Assembly: GCF_014202945.1 (NCBI RefSeq)
Contig: NZ_JACHHW010000001.1
Coordinates: 124,001-188,000 of the forward strand
Length of the DNA stretch: 64,000 nt
Source: Zhongshania antarctica
Lineage (GTDB): Bacteria > Pseudomonadota > Gammaproteobacteria > Pseudomonadales > Spongiibacteraceae
Reading direction: 5' to 3'
The first letter of the stretch is position 1; every line of letters starts with the position of its first letter. The position numbers and the translations under genes were made by a program. Positions 3,328 through 11,460 of this stretch are shown piece by piece. Below the pieces are notes generated by a model. That model saw only the letters and a list, made by a program, of their open reading frames with translations, did no database searches and was not told the DNA's origin.

Positions 3328-3376
3328 ATCCACCCCGCTTCTCCAGAGAAGCCAGTTTTCATTGCGGAGTCTGTTA

Positions 3377-4642
3377 ATGTCAGCGCTGTTTCGCCACCCC
3401 CTAGCCCTTATTGCCTGTTTAATTCTCTCTGGCTTCGCTCAGGCTGAAGCCAAACCTGCGGCAAAAGTCGATGCGCTAGCGGTGGTTAAACATTATGCCG
3501 ACCTCGGCCACGCAATTTATAGCGATGCCGAAAGTAGCGCTCGCCAATTGCAAATTCAGGTTGAAACCTTTTTGCAAGCGCCAGATCAAGAAGGCTTAAT
3601 TGCAGCGCAAAAAGCATGGCAAACCGCACGTATTCCCTACCAGCAAAGCGAAGCGTTTCGCTTTGGAAACCCAGTGGTAGATGACTGGGAGCACCAACTT
3701 AATAGCTGGCCACTCGACGAGGGGCTAATCGACTACGTCGCCGACGATTATTTTGCCGCCCTGGGTAATATTGGCGGTGACCTTAATATTATCGCCAATG
3801 CCCGCATTAATCTGGGTGGCGAGATTATTGACGCCAGTACGATTAACGCCGAGTTGTTACGCGGCCTCCATGAGCTCGGCGGCTCCGCAGCCAATGTTGC
3901 CACGGGCTACCACGCTATTGAATTTTTACTATGGGGGCAGGACCTCCACGGTCACGAACTCGGCGCGGGTGAACGTCCCTACACCGATTACAGCCAAGGC
4001 GCGCAATGCAGTCACGGCAATTGTGACCGGCGCGCCGCTTATTTGCGCACGGCGGTCAGTATCCTGGTAGAAGACCTCAGTTATATGACCAAACAGTGGG
4101 CGCCAAACCACGCCGGCAATTACCGCAGCCAGTTGCTCGCCCTCAACAAGCAAATTGTCTTAGCGAGAATTTTCAACGGCATGGGATCACTGTCATTAGG
4201 CGAGCTAGGTGGTGAACGGATAAAAGTATCACTAGAAGCCAACTCAACAGAAGATGAACACGACTGTTTTAGCGACAACACCCATTGGTCTCACTACTAC
4301 AACGGCCTGGGTATTGAAAATGTGTACCTCGGTCGCTACCAGCGACTCAATGGTGACATTTTACGTGGCCCGTCACTAAGTGATTTAGTCCAGCAGGCAA
4401 GCCCCGACGTCGACAAGAAAACTCGGCAGACTCTGAGCGCAACCATGGCAAGTTTAAAGGCATTAAGCGATACCGCCGAAGCCAAGGAAAAGCCAATGAA
4501 ATTTGACATGCTTATCGCGGAGGGTAATCAGCGAGGCGAAGATATTCTCAGCGCCATTCTGAAAGACCTGGTAGCGCAAACTCGCGCCTTTGAAGCCGCG
4601 GCAGCGGCTATTAAAATCGACCCAACAGCCACAGGCCTATAA
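3377..4642 (+). CDS. Imelysin family protein (peptidase M75-like, iron-regulated)
   Basis: I chose the ATG at 3377, which has GGAG about 7 nt upstream, over the in-frame TTG at 3362. The protein is 421 residues with signal peptide MSALFRHPLALIACLILSGF...QA. The imelysin signature GxHxxE is intact as GYHAIE (near residue 177), followed by FLLWGQD. The second half repeats the helical-bundle fold, with SHYYNGLGIENVYLG. Known relatives (IrpA, ICMP, EfeO-like) are periplasmic or surface proteins induced by low iron. The family fold suggests metal or haem handling rather than proteolysis. It heads the Fur-box block and ends 3 nt before the next gene. Confidence 0.9.
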   Translation: MSALFRHPLALIACLILSGFAQAEAKPAAKVDALAVVKHYADLGHAIYSDAESSARQLQIQVETFLQAPDQEGLIAAQKAWQTARIPYQQSEAFRFGNPVVDDWEHQLNSWPLDEGLIDYVADDYFAALGNIGGDLNIIANARINLGGEIIDASTINAELLRGLHELGGSAANVATGYHAIEFLLWGQDLHGHELGAGERPYTDYSQGAQCSHGNCDRRAAYLRTAVSILVEDLSYMTKQWAPNHAGNYRSQLLALNKQIVLARIFNGMGSLSLGELGGERIKVSLEANSTEDEHDCFSDNTHWSHYYNGLGIENVYLGRYQRLNGDILRGPSLSDLVQQASPDVDKKTRQTLSATMASLKALSDTAEAKEKPMKFDMLIAEGNQRGEDILSAILKDLVAQTRAFEAAAAAIKIDPTATGL

Positions 4643-4645
4643 ACC

Positions 4646-6019
4646 TTGCCGAGGCCGCGCACGATATCACCGTCGATGCTGCTACTGTGCGCCGTCATTG
4701 CATTATCGGCCTGCAAAAGCCACGCGCCACTCCCCTTAGACAGTGGCGCCAGCTTTAGCCTTGCCTCAGACTCACCACGTATTCTTGAACAGGCCCAGCC
4801 TCAACTCAGTATGGAGCAGAAACTCGATTGGGCGGTGGGAAAAAGCTTTGCCAATCAAGCCTGGGTGAGCGCACCCGCCAGCACCCGCGCGCGCGACGGC
4901 CTTGGGCCATTGTTTAACGCCAACAGCTGTGTCGCCTGCCACCAGCACAATGGCCAAGGCCAATTACCGGAACACGGCCCTGGCCTGATACTGCGCATCG
5001 CCGCCATTGGCGCAAACCATAATGCCTATGGCGAGCAGCTCCAAGATCACGCGCTACTCGGCAACCGAGCCGAAGGGCAGATTGCGTGGCGCGACATTGC
5101 ATCGGCGGGTCAGGCAGCCAGCGAACAAACTAGCTTAAGTCACCGCCAGTATTTTATGGTGCAAGCGAACTATGGCGATACTAACGGTATGGCGTTTTCA
5201 GCGCGGCTTGCCCCCGCCTTAATCGGCATGGGTTTATTAAACAGTATCTCTGACGAACTGCTCGTTAAACGCAGTGATCCTGAGGATCGCGACGGCAACG
5301 GTATTTCTGGCCGTGTCGAACTGCGCTGGGACGAACAACAACAAAAACTGCGCCCCGGCCGCTTTGGCTGGAAGGCCAGCCAAGCCAGTCTTAAGCAACA
5401 AGTCGCCTTGGCCTTTAGCCAAGACTTGGGTATTCGCTCGACCATTTATTCAGCGCCAAATTGCCCGCCCATTATGCCAAACTGCGACCCAGAGTTTGCG
5501 CTAAGCGAAAACCCAGAGCCGGAAATAAGTGCAAAATTGCTAAATGCCGTTACTTACTATATTGCCAATCTCGCGGTGCCGAGCATACAAAAAAAGCCTG
5601 ACTTACAAACGGGCTACCAGCACTTTATTAAGCTCGGTTGCGCCGACTGCCACATTCCAGCAACCGAAATCAACACCGCTGCTTTTGGCTTGCAACCATC
5701 ACTTACTAGCGTGACTACGCAAAAAGAAACCATTTACCCCTTTAGCGATCTATTGCTGCACGACATGGGTCCAGAACTTGCTGACAGCGCCGATACCGAC
5801 AACACCCCAGCCACAGAATGGCGCACCGCGCCGCTTTGGGGGCTAGGAATACGCAGTCGAGACGACACTCAAACACGCCTGCTTCACGACGGTCGCGCCA
5901 AATCCGTCGAAGAGGCTATACGCTGGCATGGCGGCGAGGCTGAGCGTAGCCGTCAAAATTACCAACAACTTGATTCTCACTCACAAACGGCTCTGCTACA
6001 TTTTCTTAAGGCACTGTAA
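4646..6019 (+). CDS. Di-haem c-type oxidoreductase (DHOR/DUF1111) lipoprotein
   Basis: 457 residues from a TTG at 4646; an ATG at 4676 is a possible alternative but would remove the Arg residues of the signal n-region. The lipobox LSAC (Cys near 23) predicts lipidation. Two CxxCH haem-c motifs are present, CVACH near residue 95 and CADCH near 332. The C-terminal block has TAPLWGLG and LHDGRAKSVEEAIRWHGGEA, characteristic of this MauG/cytochrome-peroxidase-like family. In iron-regulated loci of other proteobacteria the family sits between two imelysins, exactly as here. Electron transfer or Fe(II)/Fe(III) redox in the periplasm is the likely role. Confidence 0.9.
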   Translation: MPRPRTISPSMLLLCAVIALSACKSHAPLPLDSGASFSLASDSPRILEQAQPQLSMEQKLDWAVGKSFANQAWVSAPASTRARDGLGPLFNANSCVACHQHNGQGQLPEHGPGLILRIAAIGANHNAYGEQLQDHALLGNRAEGQIAWRDIASAGQAASEQTSLSHRQYFMVQANYGDTNGMAFSARLAPALIGMGLLNSISDELLVKRSDPEDRDGNGISGRVELRWDEQQQKLRPGRFGWKASQASLKQQVALAFSQDLGIRSTIYSAPNCPPIMPNCDPEFALSENPEPEISAKLLNAVTYYIANLAVPSIQKKPDLQTGYQHFIKLGCADCHIPATEINTAAFGLQPSLTSVTTQKETIYPFSDLLLHDMGPELADSADTDNTPATEWRTAPLWGLGIRSRDDTQTRLLHDGRAKSVEEAIRWHGGEAERSRQNYQQLDSHSQTALLHFLKAL

Positions 6020-7149
6020 TGAAATTACCAACCCTGAGCGCCCCTCAATTAAAAGTGATGACCCACAGCCTGCTGCTTATTGCCGCCATAGGTTTAACCG
6101 CCGCCTGTAGTCCGCCCCCCTCAGAAAAAGTGCTGATAAACACCAGCAAATTGGCTATTTTACCCGCGCACGAACGCTTTTCACTTAGCAGCCAGGCGCT
6201 GGCCCTCGCTGCGGATAGTTTTTGTGCCGCGCCAAGCAGCGAGGGCCTCGACCTCGTCCGCACTCACTGGCGAACCACCGTGGACAGCTGGTCTGGGGTG
6301 CAAAACCTGCAATTTGGCCCTCTGCTCATCGACAATCAAGCCTGGAAAATTCAATTTTGGCCCGACAAAAAGAACTTGATTGCCCGCAAAGTTGAAGTAC
6401 TTATACGCAGTGACGAAGTATTAAACGAAAAACGTATCGACGACGCCAGCGTTGTCGTACAAGGCCTGTCGTCGCTAGAATACTTGCTGTTTGACGGGAA
6501 GCTCGGCTCTCTAAAGAGCTATGCGAATACCGACACCAGCACTCGCCGCTGCGCGCTATTGGTCGCGGTGACCGGTCATTTACACGGAGTTGCTAACGGC
6601 CTATACGATGCATGGCGTCCAGAGTCAGGCAACTACCTGCAGGCGTTTACTAAAACTGGCCCCGATAATCCAGAATACCCCGACGACAATGTGGCACTCG
6701 CTAATTTACTCGACACCCTCGTGGCCGGCGTTGAACTCATTAAACGGGACAAATTTGAGCGCCCCTTAGGCCTTGCAAGCAGCGACGGCCAAGCACAAAT
6801 TTACCTGCTCGAATGGTGGCGGAGCCAATATTCCAGAGAGGCGATCACCGCCAATCTCATGGCATTAAAAACGGTGTTTACTGCGGCAAGCGGCTATGGC
6901 TTAGACGACTATTTAACCAGCGTTAAGCAACACAGCGATTTAAGCGCACAAATCCAACAGCACTTTGACAGCAGTCTCAGCGCCGCCAACGCCATACCCA
7001 ATAGTTTGTTTAGTAGCCCAGCGCCCCGCGACCAAGCCGAGCTTATTGCGTTTCAAAACGAAATTACCACGCTGCTTTCTTTACTGAAATCTGATTTGCC
7101 CACGGCCTTAGGTATCAGCCTTGGGTTTAACGCCAAAGACGGCGACTAA
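6019..7149 (+). CDS. Second imelysin-like lipoprotein with altered GxHxxE motif
   Basis: 376 residues. The ATG overlaps the previous stop (TAATG), indicating translational coupling. A lipoprotein signal ends in TAAC (Cys near residue 31). The fold-level features of imelysins are present, such as FGPLLIDNQAWKIQFWPD and a GLSSLEYLLFD segment. At the signature position the sequence is GLSSLE, so the conserved His of GxHxxE is Ser while Gly and Glu remain. This may mean it binds metal differently from the first imelysin or acts as a structural partner. It is the third gene of the iron block. Confidence 0.85.
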   Translation: MKLPTLSAPQLKVMTHSLLLIAAIGLTAACSPPPSEKVLINTSKLAILPAHERFSLSSQALALAADSFCAAPSSEGLDLVRTHWRTTVDSWSGVQNLQFGPLLIDNQAWKIQFWPDKKNLIARKVEVLIRSDEVLNEKRIDDASVVVQGLSSLEYLLFDGKLGSLKSYANTDTSTRRCALLVAVTGHLHGVANGLYDAWRPESGNYLQAFTKTGPDNPEYPDDNVALANLLDTLVAGVELIKRDKFERPLGLASSDGQAQIYLLEWWRSQYSREAITANLMALKTVFTAASGYGLDDYLTSVKQHSDLSAQIQQHFDSSLSAANAIPNSLFSSPAPRDQAELIAFQNEITTLLSLLKSDLPTALGISLGFNAKDGD

Positions 7150-7196
7150 ATTAACAAGCTCTGCGCCACCAGCAATCAGAAAATTTGAGGAACACC

Positions 7197-8297
7197 ATGC
7201 AACGTCGTCGCTTTATCCTCGCCTCTGGCGCCCTCCTGAGCACACCATTTGTGGGCGTGTCGCCAGCACTGGCCAAAACTGCCAAATTCACACCGGTTCT
7301 CAGCGCCGCCAGCGATGACGACGGCAAGCATATAGGCGTGTGGCGCGACGATCACTGGCAGCTGTCTCAAAAAATCGCCCACCGTGGTCACGACAGCCTA
7401 TTCCATCGCCAGCGTCAGGAGCTGGTTTTTTTCTCTCGTCGACCTGGCCGTGAAATGTATATTGTCGACGCGAAACACGGCGGCTTGCTGCACACCGTAA
7501 GCAGTGAAGATGGCTACCACTACTACGGTCACGGCTGCCTAAGTGCCGATGGCCGCTACTTATACACCACTGAAAATTATTTTGCCGATGATGGCGCGGG
7601 CAGTATCGGTGTTTACGACTGCCAGCAAGATTATCAGTGTGTTGGCCATATGGACTGCGACGGCATTGGCCCTCACGAACTGGCACTGATGCCCGACGGC
7701 AAGACCTTGGCCATTGCCATTGGCGGCATTAAAACCTTGCCCGCCAGTGGCAGAAAAACACTGAACCCAAATACCATGACGCCCGCGCTGCACTACTTAG
7801 ATATTGCCTCCGGAAGGGTCGTAGAGCGCCACGCTGCACCACATTTCCAATTGAGCCTCCGCCATCTGGACGTTAGCGCAAGCGGTCAAGTTATTATTGG
7901 CGCCCAATTCCAAGGTAGTCTGCCATCGCGACTGCCGCTGGTATACAGCCATCAGCGGGGCGCCGCCCTCACTGCAATGAGCTATGGCGAACTGCCTTTG
8001 CAATTTAAACAAGACTATATTGCCAGCATTAGTATTGACGCGCAGGGCATACACGCCGTGACTAGCTGCCCCCGCGACAATCTCGTCTGCCTCTGGGATC
8101 TCCGTAGTTTGCAGTTACAACAGGTATACTCCTTGCGAGACAGTGCCGGGGCCATTTATGACGCCGCTTATCAGCAGTTTATTTTAAGCAATGGCAATGG
8201 CCAGCTAATGGCGTTAAAGCCCGAGCAAACGAAATTGATTCCCCTTGCCTACGCCCCTGGAACCCATTGGGATAACCACCTAACACTATTGCGCTGA
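7197..8297 (+). CDS. DUF1513 protein with twin-arginine signal
   Basis: The ATG at 7197 has GAGG 6 nt upstream and is preferred to the TTG at 7185. The product has 366 residues and begins MQRRRFILASGALLSTPF, a Tat-type signal ending near ALA. The mature part resembles a beta-propeller: strand-rich repeats with motifs such as GHGCLSADGRYLYTTEN, GIGPHELALMPDGKTLAIAIGG and NLVCLWDLR. DUF1513 proteins accompany imelysin and DHOR genes in iron-regulated clusters, and their biochemical role is unknown. Tat export would fit folding around a cofactor or metal before export. It starts 47 nt after the second imelysin. Confidence 0.85.
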   Translation: MQRRRFILASGALLSTPFVGVSPALAKTAKFTPVLSAASDDDGKHIGVWRDDHWQLSQKIAHRGHDSLFHRQRQELVFFSRRPGREMYIVDAKHGGLLHTVSSEDGYHYYGHGCLSADGRYLYTTENYFADDGAGSIGVYDCQQDYQCVGHMDCDGIGPHELALMPDGKTLAIAIGGIKTLPASGRKTLNPNTMTPALHYLDIASGRVVERHAAPHFQLSLRHLDVSASGQVIIGAQFQGSLPSRLPLVYSHQRGAALTAMSYGELPLQFKQDYIASISIDAQGIHAVTSCPRDNLVCLWDLRSLQLQQVYSLRDSAGAIYDAAYQQFILSNGNGQLMALKPEQTKLIPLAYAPGTHWDNHLTLLR

Positions 8298-8316
8298 ACA
8301 CGATTAAGGAAGCAAT

Positions 8317-9705
8317 ATGAAACGCAGAACCCTTATCAAAAGCAGTGCCACCGCGCTGCTCGCCAGCTCACTGCCAAAATTGAGCTTGGCCATGGCCTCA
8401 GCAGATAAGAGTGGCAAGCCCCGCTACGACTACATTCTTACTGCGGAACCCGCCACCGCGCGCCTGGCAAAAGACGGTGACAGCCACATTCTCGGTTTTA
8501 ACGGCCAGTTTCCAGCGCCAATAATTCGCGCCAAACAGGGTCAGCCGCTGCGCGTGAAATTCATTAACAAATTGGATGAACCCAGTACCATTCACTGGCA
8601 TGGTATACGGCTCGATATCGCCATGGACGGGGTTCCCTATTTAACCCAAGCTCCGGTGCCCGCCGGCGGCAGCTTTATTTATGAATTCACTTGCCCCGAC
8701 GCGGGCACCTTTTGGTACCACCCCCACATGAATAGTGTTGAACAATTGGGCAAAGGCTTAGTGGGCGCGCTAATTGTTGAAGAGCGCGATCTCCCCGATT
8801 ATCACGACGTGATTATTGGCATGAAAGACTGGCGCCTAAAAGCCGATGGCAGCTATTTGCCACTGTCCATCCCTAGAGAAGCCGCACGCGCAGGAACACT
8901 GGGCACCTTAGCCACAATCAACGGCTCAGAAAAGCCAGTCATCGACGTGCCCGCAGGAGAACGGCTGCGCTTACGGTTTTTAAACCTAGACAATACCCGA
9001 GTTTACAATCTCAGTTTACGGAATGACGAGGCCAAAGTGATTGCCATTGACGGCAGCCCGGTGGCTAAGCCCTATACTTTAGAGGTTCACCCTACCGGCG
9101 CGGGTATGCGTCTAGACGTCGGCTTAATTAGCCCCAATAAACTGGGTGTCGAGATTCCGATTTACGATATGAAGGGGCGCTTTGGCGTCGAGATTTGTCG
9201 TTTAAAAACGGTTGCTGGCGGTAAGACTAAGGCCGTAAAAACAGGGATACCCGCGCTACCTGCCAACCCAATACCAGCGCCACAGCTGGCGGCCGCTGAA
9301 ACTCTTAGCTTTGTGTTTGAATGGGCCGGCGCCCTGTCACCAAGCAACAAAGATGGCCAAGTTGACCACAGTTTTTGGCTAATCAATCGCCGCGCTTGGA
9401 ACGACCACAGCCACCAAAACTTACCCGCGCCCCTCGCCACACTAAAACTGGGGCAAAGCTATATAGTCGAATTGCACAATGCCACGCCACATCACCACCC
9501 TATTCATCTCCATGGCTTAATCTTTACCGTGTTGGAATCTGACAAACGGGAACTCACGCCCTATCACACCGACACCATTTTATTGGAGAAAAACGAGCGT
9601 GCTAAAATCGCCTTTGTGGCCGACAACCCAGGCCGTTGGATGTTCCACTGCCATGTAATCGAACACATGCAGACGGGACTCATGGGCTATATCACTATTG
9701 CCTAA
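8317..9705 (+). CDS. Multicopper oxidase, Tat-exported
   Basis: 462 residues with AAGGA before the ATG. A twin-arginine signal (KRRTLIKSSATALLASS) is followed by three cupredoxin domains. All four copper-ligand segments are visible: HWHG, WYHPH, HPIHLHG and HCHVIEHMQTGLM, which supplies Cys, His and an axial Met for type-1 copper. The family includes CueO, copper-resistance oxidases and ferroxidases. It lies 19 nt after the DUF1513 gene in the same orientation, so an iron-oxidising role linked to the upstream imelysin/DHOR genes is attractive but is inference. There is no copper-resistance gene beside it. Confidence 0.9.
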   Translation: MKRRTLIKSSATALLASSLPKLSLAMASADKSGKPRYDYILTAEPATARLAKDGDSHILGFNGQFPAPIIRAKQGQPLRVKFINKLDEPSTIHWHGIRLDIAMDGVPYLTQAPVPAGGSFIYEFTCPDAGTFWYHPHMNSVEQLGKGLVGALIVEERDLPDYHDVIIGMKDWRLKADGSYLPLSIPREAARAGTLGTLATINGSEKPVIDVPAGERLRLRFLNLDNTRVYNLSLRNDEAKVIAIDGSPVAKPYTLEVHPTGAGMRLDVGLISPNKLGVEIPIYDMKGRFGVEICRLKTVAGGKTKAVKTGIPALPANPIPAPQLAAAETLSFVFEWAGALSPSNKDGQVDHSFWLINRRAWNDHSHQNLPAPLATLKLGQSYIVELHNATPHHHPIHLHGLIFTVLESDKRELTPYHTDTILLEKNERAKIAFVADNPGRWMFHCHVIEHMQTGLMGYITIA

Positions 9706-9810: not shown

Positions 9811-11460
9811 TTAACTCTGGGGCTGGCTAATTGGGACTACCTTGCCATTAGCGGAAGACGATGCCGATTGTTTCGTTTTAACCGCTCCCGATTTAGCCGC
9901 GCTGCTACTCGCAGAGGAGCGTGCCTTTTTCGCCACCGGCTTTTGCACACTGGCATTGGCAGTTGCGCTACTACTGGCTTTGCTTTTACGCGCGGGTTTT
10001 GCGCTCGCTTTTTTAGGCGCCGTAGCCGCTGCGTCTTCTTTCGGGGTCGCCTTTGCCGCTGCGAATAATTCGGCGAAAGACTTTTCAATACACTCACGAT
10101 AAAACGCCGGATCGGGCATGGAATCCCGATCACCGATTATCGACAGGGTCACAATGCCATTTGAACTAAAGATTAAATGGAATAAACCTACTCCAGGCGT
10201 AAGCAAGCCTAGACCGTAATACCTGACCATCTGTGCGCCGGCAGAGTACAGCGGGAAGGTTGGGCCTGCCACATTAGACACTACCGACGTAATTCCCAAA
10301 GGCAAATGGCGAGTCAGCTCATTATTAACATAGGCATTGACCAGTGGCCGCGTGAGCGCGGGCGACATTACACCGGCAAGGCGCAAGACATCGACTAAAG
10401 GTGAGTTTTCACCGTAAATTTTCGCTTCTTGCGAGCTTTTATAAATCCCAGCCAAGCGTTTTACTGGATCAGCAACATTCGTATGTAACTCGACAAACAC
10501 CGAACCTACCTGGTTATTTTCGTCCGTCATTCCCCGCCGCGTTCGCATATCCAGTGGTATTGACACCGCCAAGCTTTCGTCTGGCAACTCCTTATGGTGC
10601 ATTAAATAATGGCGTAAACCACCGGCAATGATGGCCAAAATAACATCGTTGATCTTCACTTCACAGATGTCTTTCAGTGCTTTGATATCGGCTAGCGGAA
10701 ACTCCGCAGCCTCAAATACGCGGTGAGGGCCAACGGGGGTATTAAATCGCGTGCGCGGCGACGAAATAGAAGGAACAGGAATTTTCTTCTGCGCCATTCC
10801 TATCGCCATTTTCCCTAAATCGCGCAGCACACCCGCGCCACCCGTTACCATTTTAACGGTGTTTCTAACATTATTAACCGCTGCCGAACTAGCGAGATAC
10901 AAGGAGTTCGGCATCACATCGGCAGTTACTACCGCCTCAGCTTGGGGTACGGCAGCAGGATCTGGCTCCAAGTCATGGATGACTGACATGATTGACGAGC
11001 CACCAGCCCCATCAACGAGTGAGTGATGCATTTTGGTATAGATGGCGAAGCCGCCCTCGGGAACACCCGGAATATTGTCCAAACCTTCAATGATATAGGC
11101 CTCCCAGAGCGGGCGGTTCATATCAAGTGGCCGCGCATGCAGCCTCGCAACCAAGATACATAACTGACGCCAGTCGCCAGGCTGAGGTAAGGCAATATGG
11201 CGAATATGAAATTCAACATCAAAATTAGCGTCTTGAACCCAGTAAGGCCGGTCCACATTGCCGGGCACCTTAACGAGACGCGAACGGAAAATGGTGTGTT
11301 TGTGCAGCCGCCGCTCAAAATTGGCAATAACGCCTTTAAACCGCACCGCGCCACCAGGCGCTGTTGATGGGTCGTATATCCCTAAGCCACCAACATGCTG
11401 GGGTGTATTGGCATGTTCGAGATTAATAAATGCCGTATCAAGTACACCTAACTGCTTCAT
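9811..11460 (-). CDS. Wax ester synthase / diacylglycerol acyltransferase with Lys/Ala/Ser-rich tail
   Basis: 549 residues; AGAGGTT lies 8 nt before the ATG. The catalytic HHxxxDG motif is HHSLVDG (near 145-151). The N-terminal LDTAFINLEHANTPQHVGGL and downstream PLDMRTRRGMTDENNQVGS and SVVSNVAGPTFPLYSAGA blocks are those of bacterial WS/DGAT enzymes, which join acyl-CoA to long-chain alcohols or diacylglycerol for storage lipid. The core of about 460 residues is normal length. The last 80 or so residues are an extra low-complexity tail of Lys, Ala and Ser resembling histone H1 or PhaF-type tails. The gene is monocistronic and convergent with the multicopper oxidase. Confidence 0.9.
   Translation of the reverse strand: MKQLGVLDTAFINLEHANTPQHVGGLGIYDPSTAPGGAVRFKGVIANFERRLHKHTIFRSRLVKVPGNVDRPYWVQDANFDVEFHIRHIALPQPGDWRQLCILVARLHARPLDMNRPLWEAYIIEGLDNIPGVPEGGFAIYTKMHHSLVDGAGGSSIMSVIHDLEPDPAAVPQAEAVVTADVMPNSLYLASSAAVNNVRNTVKMVTGGAGVLRDLGKMAIGMAQKKIPVPSISSPRTRFNTPVGPHRVFEAAEFPLADIKALKDICEVKINDVILAIIAGGLRHYLMHHKELPDESLAVSIPLDMRTRRGMTDENNQVGSVFVELHTNVADPVKRLAGIYKSSQEAKIYGENSPLVDVLRLAGVMSPALTRPLVNAYVNNELTRHLPLGITSVVSNVAGPTFPLYSAGAQMVRYYGLGLLTPGVGLFHLIFSSNGIVTLSIIGDRDSMPDPAFYRECIEKSFAELFAAAKATPKEDAAATAPKKASAKPARKSKASSSATANASVQKPVAKKARSSASSSAAKSGAVKTKQSASSSANGKVVPISQPQS

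Follow-up and report, generated by a model that had tools for sequence, protein, structure and literature searches.

A basic C-terminal tail, predicted to be disordered, on a wax ester synthase/diacylglycerol acyltransferase of Zhongshania antarctica, and its possible role as a lipid-droplet tether

The wax ester synthase/diacylglycerol acyltransferase (WS/DGAT) encoded in the window (the whole stretch of Zhongshania antarctica DNA that was analysed, 64,000 nucleotides) ends in a Lys/Ala/Ser-rich basic tail of about 80 residues, a feature that is standard in the enzyme's own clade. By analogy with other granule proteins, we tentatively propose that the tail is a disordered, polycationic extension through which the enzyme that builds the droplet would be tethered, most likely to DNA of the nucleoid, so that lipid droplets would be spread out and shared. 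What may be new is that a tail of the granule-tether type is borne by the synthesis enzyme itself: the granule tethers, as described in PMC13052382, PMC9239181 and PMC5504291, are accessory proteins distinct from the synthase, and the open-access texts retrieved (subscription papers lay outside the search) held no description of a bacterial WS/DGAT with a basic tail. The placement and sharing of bacterial lipid droplets are understood in few cases; if the reading is true, a single molecule with a built-in tether would both give rise to droplets and position them.

The enzyme and its tail

WS/DGATs work at the membrane and the droplet surface. The gene in the window (9811..11460, minus strand, stop codon included; 549 aa) encoded a complete enzyme of this family: the TIGR02946 profile matched residues 6-469 with 410.1 bits (cut-off, 309.95), PF03007 and PF06974 both matched the protein, and the phasin domain PF05597 gave no match in the profile search. 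The HHxxxDG catalytic motif of WS/DGATs, here HHSLVDG (residues 145-151; 11008..11028, minus strand), was intact, with H145, H146, D150 and G151 invariant in 42 aligned sequences. The top fold match in the PDB was the Marinobacter enzyme 6chj (Foldseek E-values of 2.3e-35 and 7.9e-35; TMt of 0.79 and 0.83).

Since the TIGR02946 match ends at residue 469, residues 1-469 were taken as the enzyme body (10054..11460, minus strand) and residues 470-549 as the tail (9814..10053, minus strand). The range proposed in the first-pass annotation, 9811..10090, is wider than the tail, since the stop codon lies within it at one end and about the last 12 residues of the enzyme's final helix at the other. The AlphaFold2 model was mostly confident for the body and not for the tail, where the mean pLDDT of successive blocks was 62 at residues 471-480, 33-50 beyond residue 480 and 33-43 beyond residue 490; secondary structure was absent after residue 479, and the tail is predicted to be disordered. 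The two solved relatives, 6chj and 7nxg (Acinetobacter WSD1), share the WS/DGAT fold and family but lack the tail; their chains have only 455 and 463 residues, so both stop about where the tail starts.

The tail contains 20 A, 18 S, 14 K, 6 P, 2 R, 1 D and 1 E (16 K/R against 2 D/E), and no F, W, Y, L, M, C or H. The window holds 59 non-overlapping open reading frames that are 100 aa or longer; when their last 70 residues were compared, no other C-terminus equalled that of the WS/DGAT in net charge (+14, with +8 for the runner-up and a mean of 1.0, sd 3.7) or in the fraction of A/K/P/S/T/R/G (0.83; next, 0.54). The basic Lys/Ala/Ser-rich C-terminus of about 80 residues reported in the first-pass annotation is thus borne out, as the most basic of the 59. 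On the plus strand, the tail coding sequence contained three terminator-like hits (9990-10033), probably a by-product of Lys codons, which read as T runs on the opposite strand.

Basic tails among related enzymes

A tail was scored as basic when it had at least 20 aa, a net charge of at least +4 and at least 14% K/R, a rule chosen after the tails had been inspected. Duplicate identical proteins, frames cut by contig ends (two of them named) and matches that stopped short of query position 440 were left out of all counts; matches starting after the first 10 query residues were also excluded from the clade counts, the motif tests and the tree, which was built from 87 enzyme bodies without their tails. 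In this tree the 41 orthologue-like sequences formed a single branch (support 100/100), and 39 of them carried a basic tail, the exceptions being L067 (11 aa) and L021 (48 aa, net +3). Basic tails were found in 9 of 12 members of the nearest paralogue band and in only 3 of the 34 more distant WS/DGATs. The earlier claim that the tail is absent from the usual enzyme is therefore right for the two solved structures and for most distant relatives, and wrong for the enzyme's own clade. The tail label needs about 8 changes over the whole tree, so basic tails were gained or lost several times. The named relatives closest to the source belonged to Zhongshania, Spongiibacter and Neomelitea.

An order-wide sample of 175 distinct proteins, which took in 80 stretches picked among the non-genus matches listed and leaned to close relatives, gave basic tails in 19/19, 37/43, 3/6, 35/53, 10/17 and 4/37 proteins in successively lower score bands. 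Some of the sequences scored as non-basic were short and yet basic (L145, L184, L196 and L202). The same contrast is present within the source genome, which holds five WS/DGAT genes: one paralogue (L002) has a shorter basic tail, and three (L003, L004 and L005) have none.

Among the tailed clade members, tail length ranged from 22 to 131 aa. K/R density was about 20% in Zhongshania and often above 30% in Halieaceae. Eight tails (L046, L047, L048, L049, L051, L063, L065 and L066), mostly from named Halieaceae with two unclassified records, were far more basic (net +29 to +45) and ended in VKPKL or similar. At the other extreme were natural tail-poor cases: L067 and L160 were without a tail or nearly so, and L021 (net +3) and L022 (net +6), both orthologues in conserved synteny, had weak tails. 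Other relatives had long tails of near-balanced charge (L132, L156, L163, L164 and L165). Weak, acidic-mixed or missing tails in L021, L022, L067, L132, L156, L160 and L163-L165 show that the enzyme can do without the charge. Tails thus vary naturally in length and in charge, up to about +45 from no tail at all, and so provide a ready test series.

In L147, L148, L156 and L163 an acidic or mixed stretch preceded the basic part of the tail, possibly a second architecture. The tail-less orthologue at L067:3001-4440, from the gammaproteobacterial MAG 7_bin.18, was nested in the tailed group; loss by frameshift was rejected, there being no Lys-rich frame downstream, and the tail-less state may be an assembly fault (contig coverage about 1.8).

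Constraint on the tail

Over the 41 orthologues the tails were composed mainly of A (22.7%), K (21.6%), S (11.7%), T (7.1%) and P (7.1%), with K preferred to R (740:198), a type of composition that PMC9239181 describes for AlgP and histone H1. Bulky residues were scarce: the 3,429 residues included 10 F, 4 Y, 5 M, 1 C and no W. The 16 closest tails kept a net charge of +9 to +19 and 1% to 5.9% of F/W/Y/L/M/C/I/H, at identities to the reference tail, L007, of 28-53% in the other fifteen. For comparison, drift was simulated from the L007 tail down to 45% identity in 300 runs, which gave a mean net charge of +7.2 (sd 3.9) and 15% of F/W/Y/L/M/C/I/H; in a single run of the 300 their share was no higher than the observed maximum, and a net charge of at least +14 was kept in 17 runs. 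Comparison of the sequences thus points to a tail whose composition is constrained, most clearly in the exclusion of bulky residues, and whose exact sequence is free, a combination that we infer to be the behaviour of disordered electrostatic tails.

In three pairs with silent sites saturated or nearly so, dN was 0.6-0.9 in the tail and 0.06-0.13 in the body. In three close pairs, dN/dS of the tail was about 0.09, 0.17 and 0.06, above that of the body and well under 1. Across orthologues, the alignments indicate that the tail sequence is almost saturated with change. Bulk charge was nevertheless kept when tails were compared across orthologues, as the first-pass annotation had proposed doing, so the tail is no chance low-complexity run. 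A chance or sequencing artefact was ruled out, because every close relative encodes the tail and dN/dS is below 1 in the three close pairs.

Conserved islands in the tail

Short islands stay fixed in the alignment while the rest of the tail scrambles. The mid-tail island KPVAKKARS (residues 507-515; 9916..9942, minus strand) corresponds to KPVA[KRQ]KA, found in 10 of the 18 closer tails (shuffled mean 0.0, maximum 1), and the C-terminal island KVVPI (residues 540-544; 9829..9843, minus strand) to VV.[ILM] within the last 22 residues, found in 16 of the 18 (shuffled mean 0.07, maximum 1). An [VR].PKL end was found in 8 of 20 more distant tails (shuffled mean 0.0, maximum 1). The shuffle tests take no account of shared ancestry, and part of the island signal is relatedness.

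The strict forms PAKKA and S/TPKKA were absent from the tail studied here, which held just APKKA (residues 481-485; 10006..10020, minus strand), its sole histone-H1/PAKKA-like element, and PVAKKA; the looser PAKK+A or [STA]PKKA occurred in 11 of 38 tails (shuffled mean 1.95, maximum 7). The near-end motif was kept as VVAM in L021 and in the similar form LVTL in L022, despite the little charge of these tails, a hint that this motif may have a function of its own. Docking of the motif onto the enzyme itself was unsupported, as the model showed no secondary structure at this position and a pLDDT no higher than about 43. Searches of the source genome's DNA for the patterns before a stop codon gave 8 places for KVVPI and 13 for NVV-x-[L/F], against 2 and 23 for the reversed controls. 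C18:5016-5043 also reads KVVPI-stop, and no listed open reading frame of at least 40 aa ends there. The idea that other proteins of the genome share the tail or its end motif was set aside.

Possible functions of the tail

In the proposed tether, the folded WS/DGAT body would sit on the membrane or the growing droplet, and the basic tail, about 80 residues long, would extend outwards and bind a polyanion irrespective of sequence, DNA of the nucleoid being the most likely candidate; droplets would thereby be spread along the nucleoid and shared between daughter cells. Such a role is played by PhaF and PhaM on PHA granules, by AlgP on polyphosphate granules and by MLDS on the droplets of Rhodococcus, each of these tethers holding the granule with one end and DNA with the other. 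The histone-like domain of PhaM and PhaF binds DNA, non-specifically in the case of PhaF (PMC13052382), DNA binding by MLDS on Rhodococcus lipid droplets is abolished by Lys-to-Glu changes in the tail (PMC5504291), and the H1-like tail of AlgP is required for the spacing of polyphosphate granules (PMC9239181). The likeness to PhaF suggested in the first-pass annotation holds in that the WS/DGAT tail has a composition like those of the PhaF, AlgP and MLDS tails and is predicted to be disordered; the best reading, by analogy, is that it would work as those tails do, the proteins not being homologous.

Each parallel has its limits. PhaF/PhaI-type phasins are storage-granule proteins whose C-terminus, like that of the WS/DGAT, is basic and rich in Ala, Lys and Pro, but the folded part of the WS/DGAT is an acyltransferase, and its tail is longer, Ser-rich and without KPAA repeats. 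MLDS of Rhodococcus jostii RHA1 is a DNA-binding lipid-droplet protein that shares the Lys-rich C-terminus, according to PMC5504291, whereas it is the major droplet protein, with four PAKKA, and the tail described here is on the synthesis enzyme, with no strict PAKKA. AlgP of Pseudomonas aeruginosa has the same kind of H1-like, disordered, basic tail, according to PMC9239181, but, unlike the WS/DGAT, a helical N-terminal domain, polyphosphate granules and a 154-aa KPAA repeat region.

The tether is favoured by the presence of the tail in the clade and its scarcity in distant enzymes (39/41 against 3/34), by the similar trend in the order-wide sample, by the AlgP- and H1-like composition, by the charge and low bulky-residue content kept against simulated drift, by the dN/dS below 1 in close pairs and by the DNA-binding analogues. 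It is weakened by the lack of strict PAKKA or S/TPKKA, by a K/R content lower than in Halieaceae, by the relatives with weak, missing or balanced tails, and by the neighbouring genes bolA and trhO, which point to neither lipid nor nucleoid biology.

An unlikely but serious competitor is a membrane or droplet-surface anchor, in which the lysines would bind anionic phospholipids and hold the peripheral enzyme where lipid gathers. This would suit the site of action of WS/DGATs, and the conservation of bulk charge fits it equally well. The Lys-rich C-terminus of mycobacterial HBHA, a likeness to the tail studied here, is reported in PMC6176652 to be required for phosphatidylinositol binding and for mycobacterial lipid inclusions; since such a tail binds acidic lipid, the tail alone does not single out DNA, and the tether is weakened to that extent. 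Unlike the WS/DGAT, HBHA is a coiled-coil adhesin and not an acyltransferase, and its tail, as reported, binds acidic lipid when methylated. Against the anchor, 3 of the 5 WS/DGATs of the source genome are tail-less, so the reaction itself needs no tail, and there are almost no hydrophobic or aromatic residues for membrane insertion, the terminal VVPI excepted.

It is improbable that the tail binds polyphosphate or RNA and thereby attaches the enzyme, in starvation, to granules of polyphosphate or to other condensates. The AlgP requirement in granule spacing (PMC9239181) and a polyphosphate kinase encoded in the source genome are in keeping with this, but the kinase was also encoded in 7 of 14 control genomes, so its presence says little, and no link to the WS/DGAT gene was found. 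Most improbable of all is a tail that acts as a non-specific spacer or aid to solubility, its low-complexity sequence being tolerated without use in binding: this would agree with the variable length, the few tail-less members and a rate of evolution some five to thirteen times that of the body, but not with the charge and bulky-residue exclusion maintained against drift, the two islands far above shuffled expectation or the dN/dS below 1 in close pairs.

A bolder extension of the tether to nucleoid DNA, which we regard as doubtful, is that this marine gammaproteobacterial clade consists of self-tethering organelle builders, with lipid synthesis and H1-like chromosome pinning in one polypeptide and the end motif (VVxI/L in Spongiibacteraceae, VKPKL in Halieaceae) docking a partner; if so, a separate phasin or ParA-type positioning protein would be unneeded. 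The tail could also serve as a handle for positioning oil droplets in engineered cells.

Genomic context

The source genome encoded PhaC and a PhaI/PhaF-type phasin (PF05597; L089:1444-1932), whose protein ends in KAPRKAPAKKAVAK; its last 30 or so residues are Ala/Lys/Pro-rich and finish in KAPAKKAVAK, so that such a tail already sits on another storage-granule protein of the same bacterium. A phasin above the family cut-off was present in 18 of 18 genus genomes, and similar Lys/Ala-rich ends (8-11 K/R in the last 30 residues) were present at 17 of the 18 genus phasin loci, L229 giving no query match. When the WS/DGAT tail was used as a query against the source genome, its own gene was the sole match at E up to 10, in a search insensitive enough to miss the similar phasin tail.

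The upstream neighbours of the WS/DGAT gene were bolA and trhO. The latter was present in the flank examined at 17 of the 18 orthologue loci of the genus (all but L008), and these loci are therefore true orthologues, the divergent L021 and L022 included. A strain-specific recent duplication or horizontal gain was ruled out by the kept bolA-trhO-WS/DGAT order together with the clade-wide tail.

Downstream, on the opposite strand, were multicopper oxidase and imelysin genes. They belong to a run at 3362-9705 (plus strand) of imelysin, di-haem oxidoreductase, second imelysin, DUF1513 and multicopper oxidase genes, which looks like an iron or copper uptake operon; the DUF1513 and multicopper oxidase genes adjoined the WS/DGAT gene in several relatives too.
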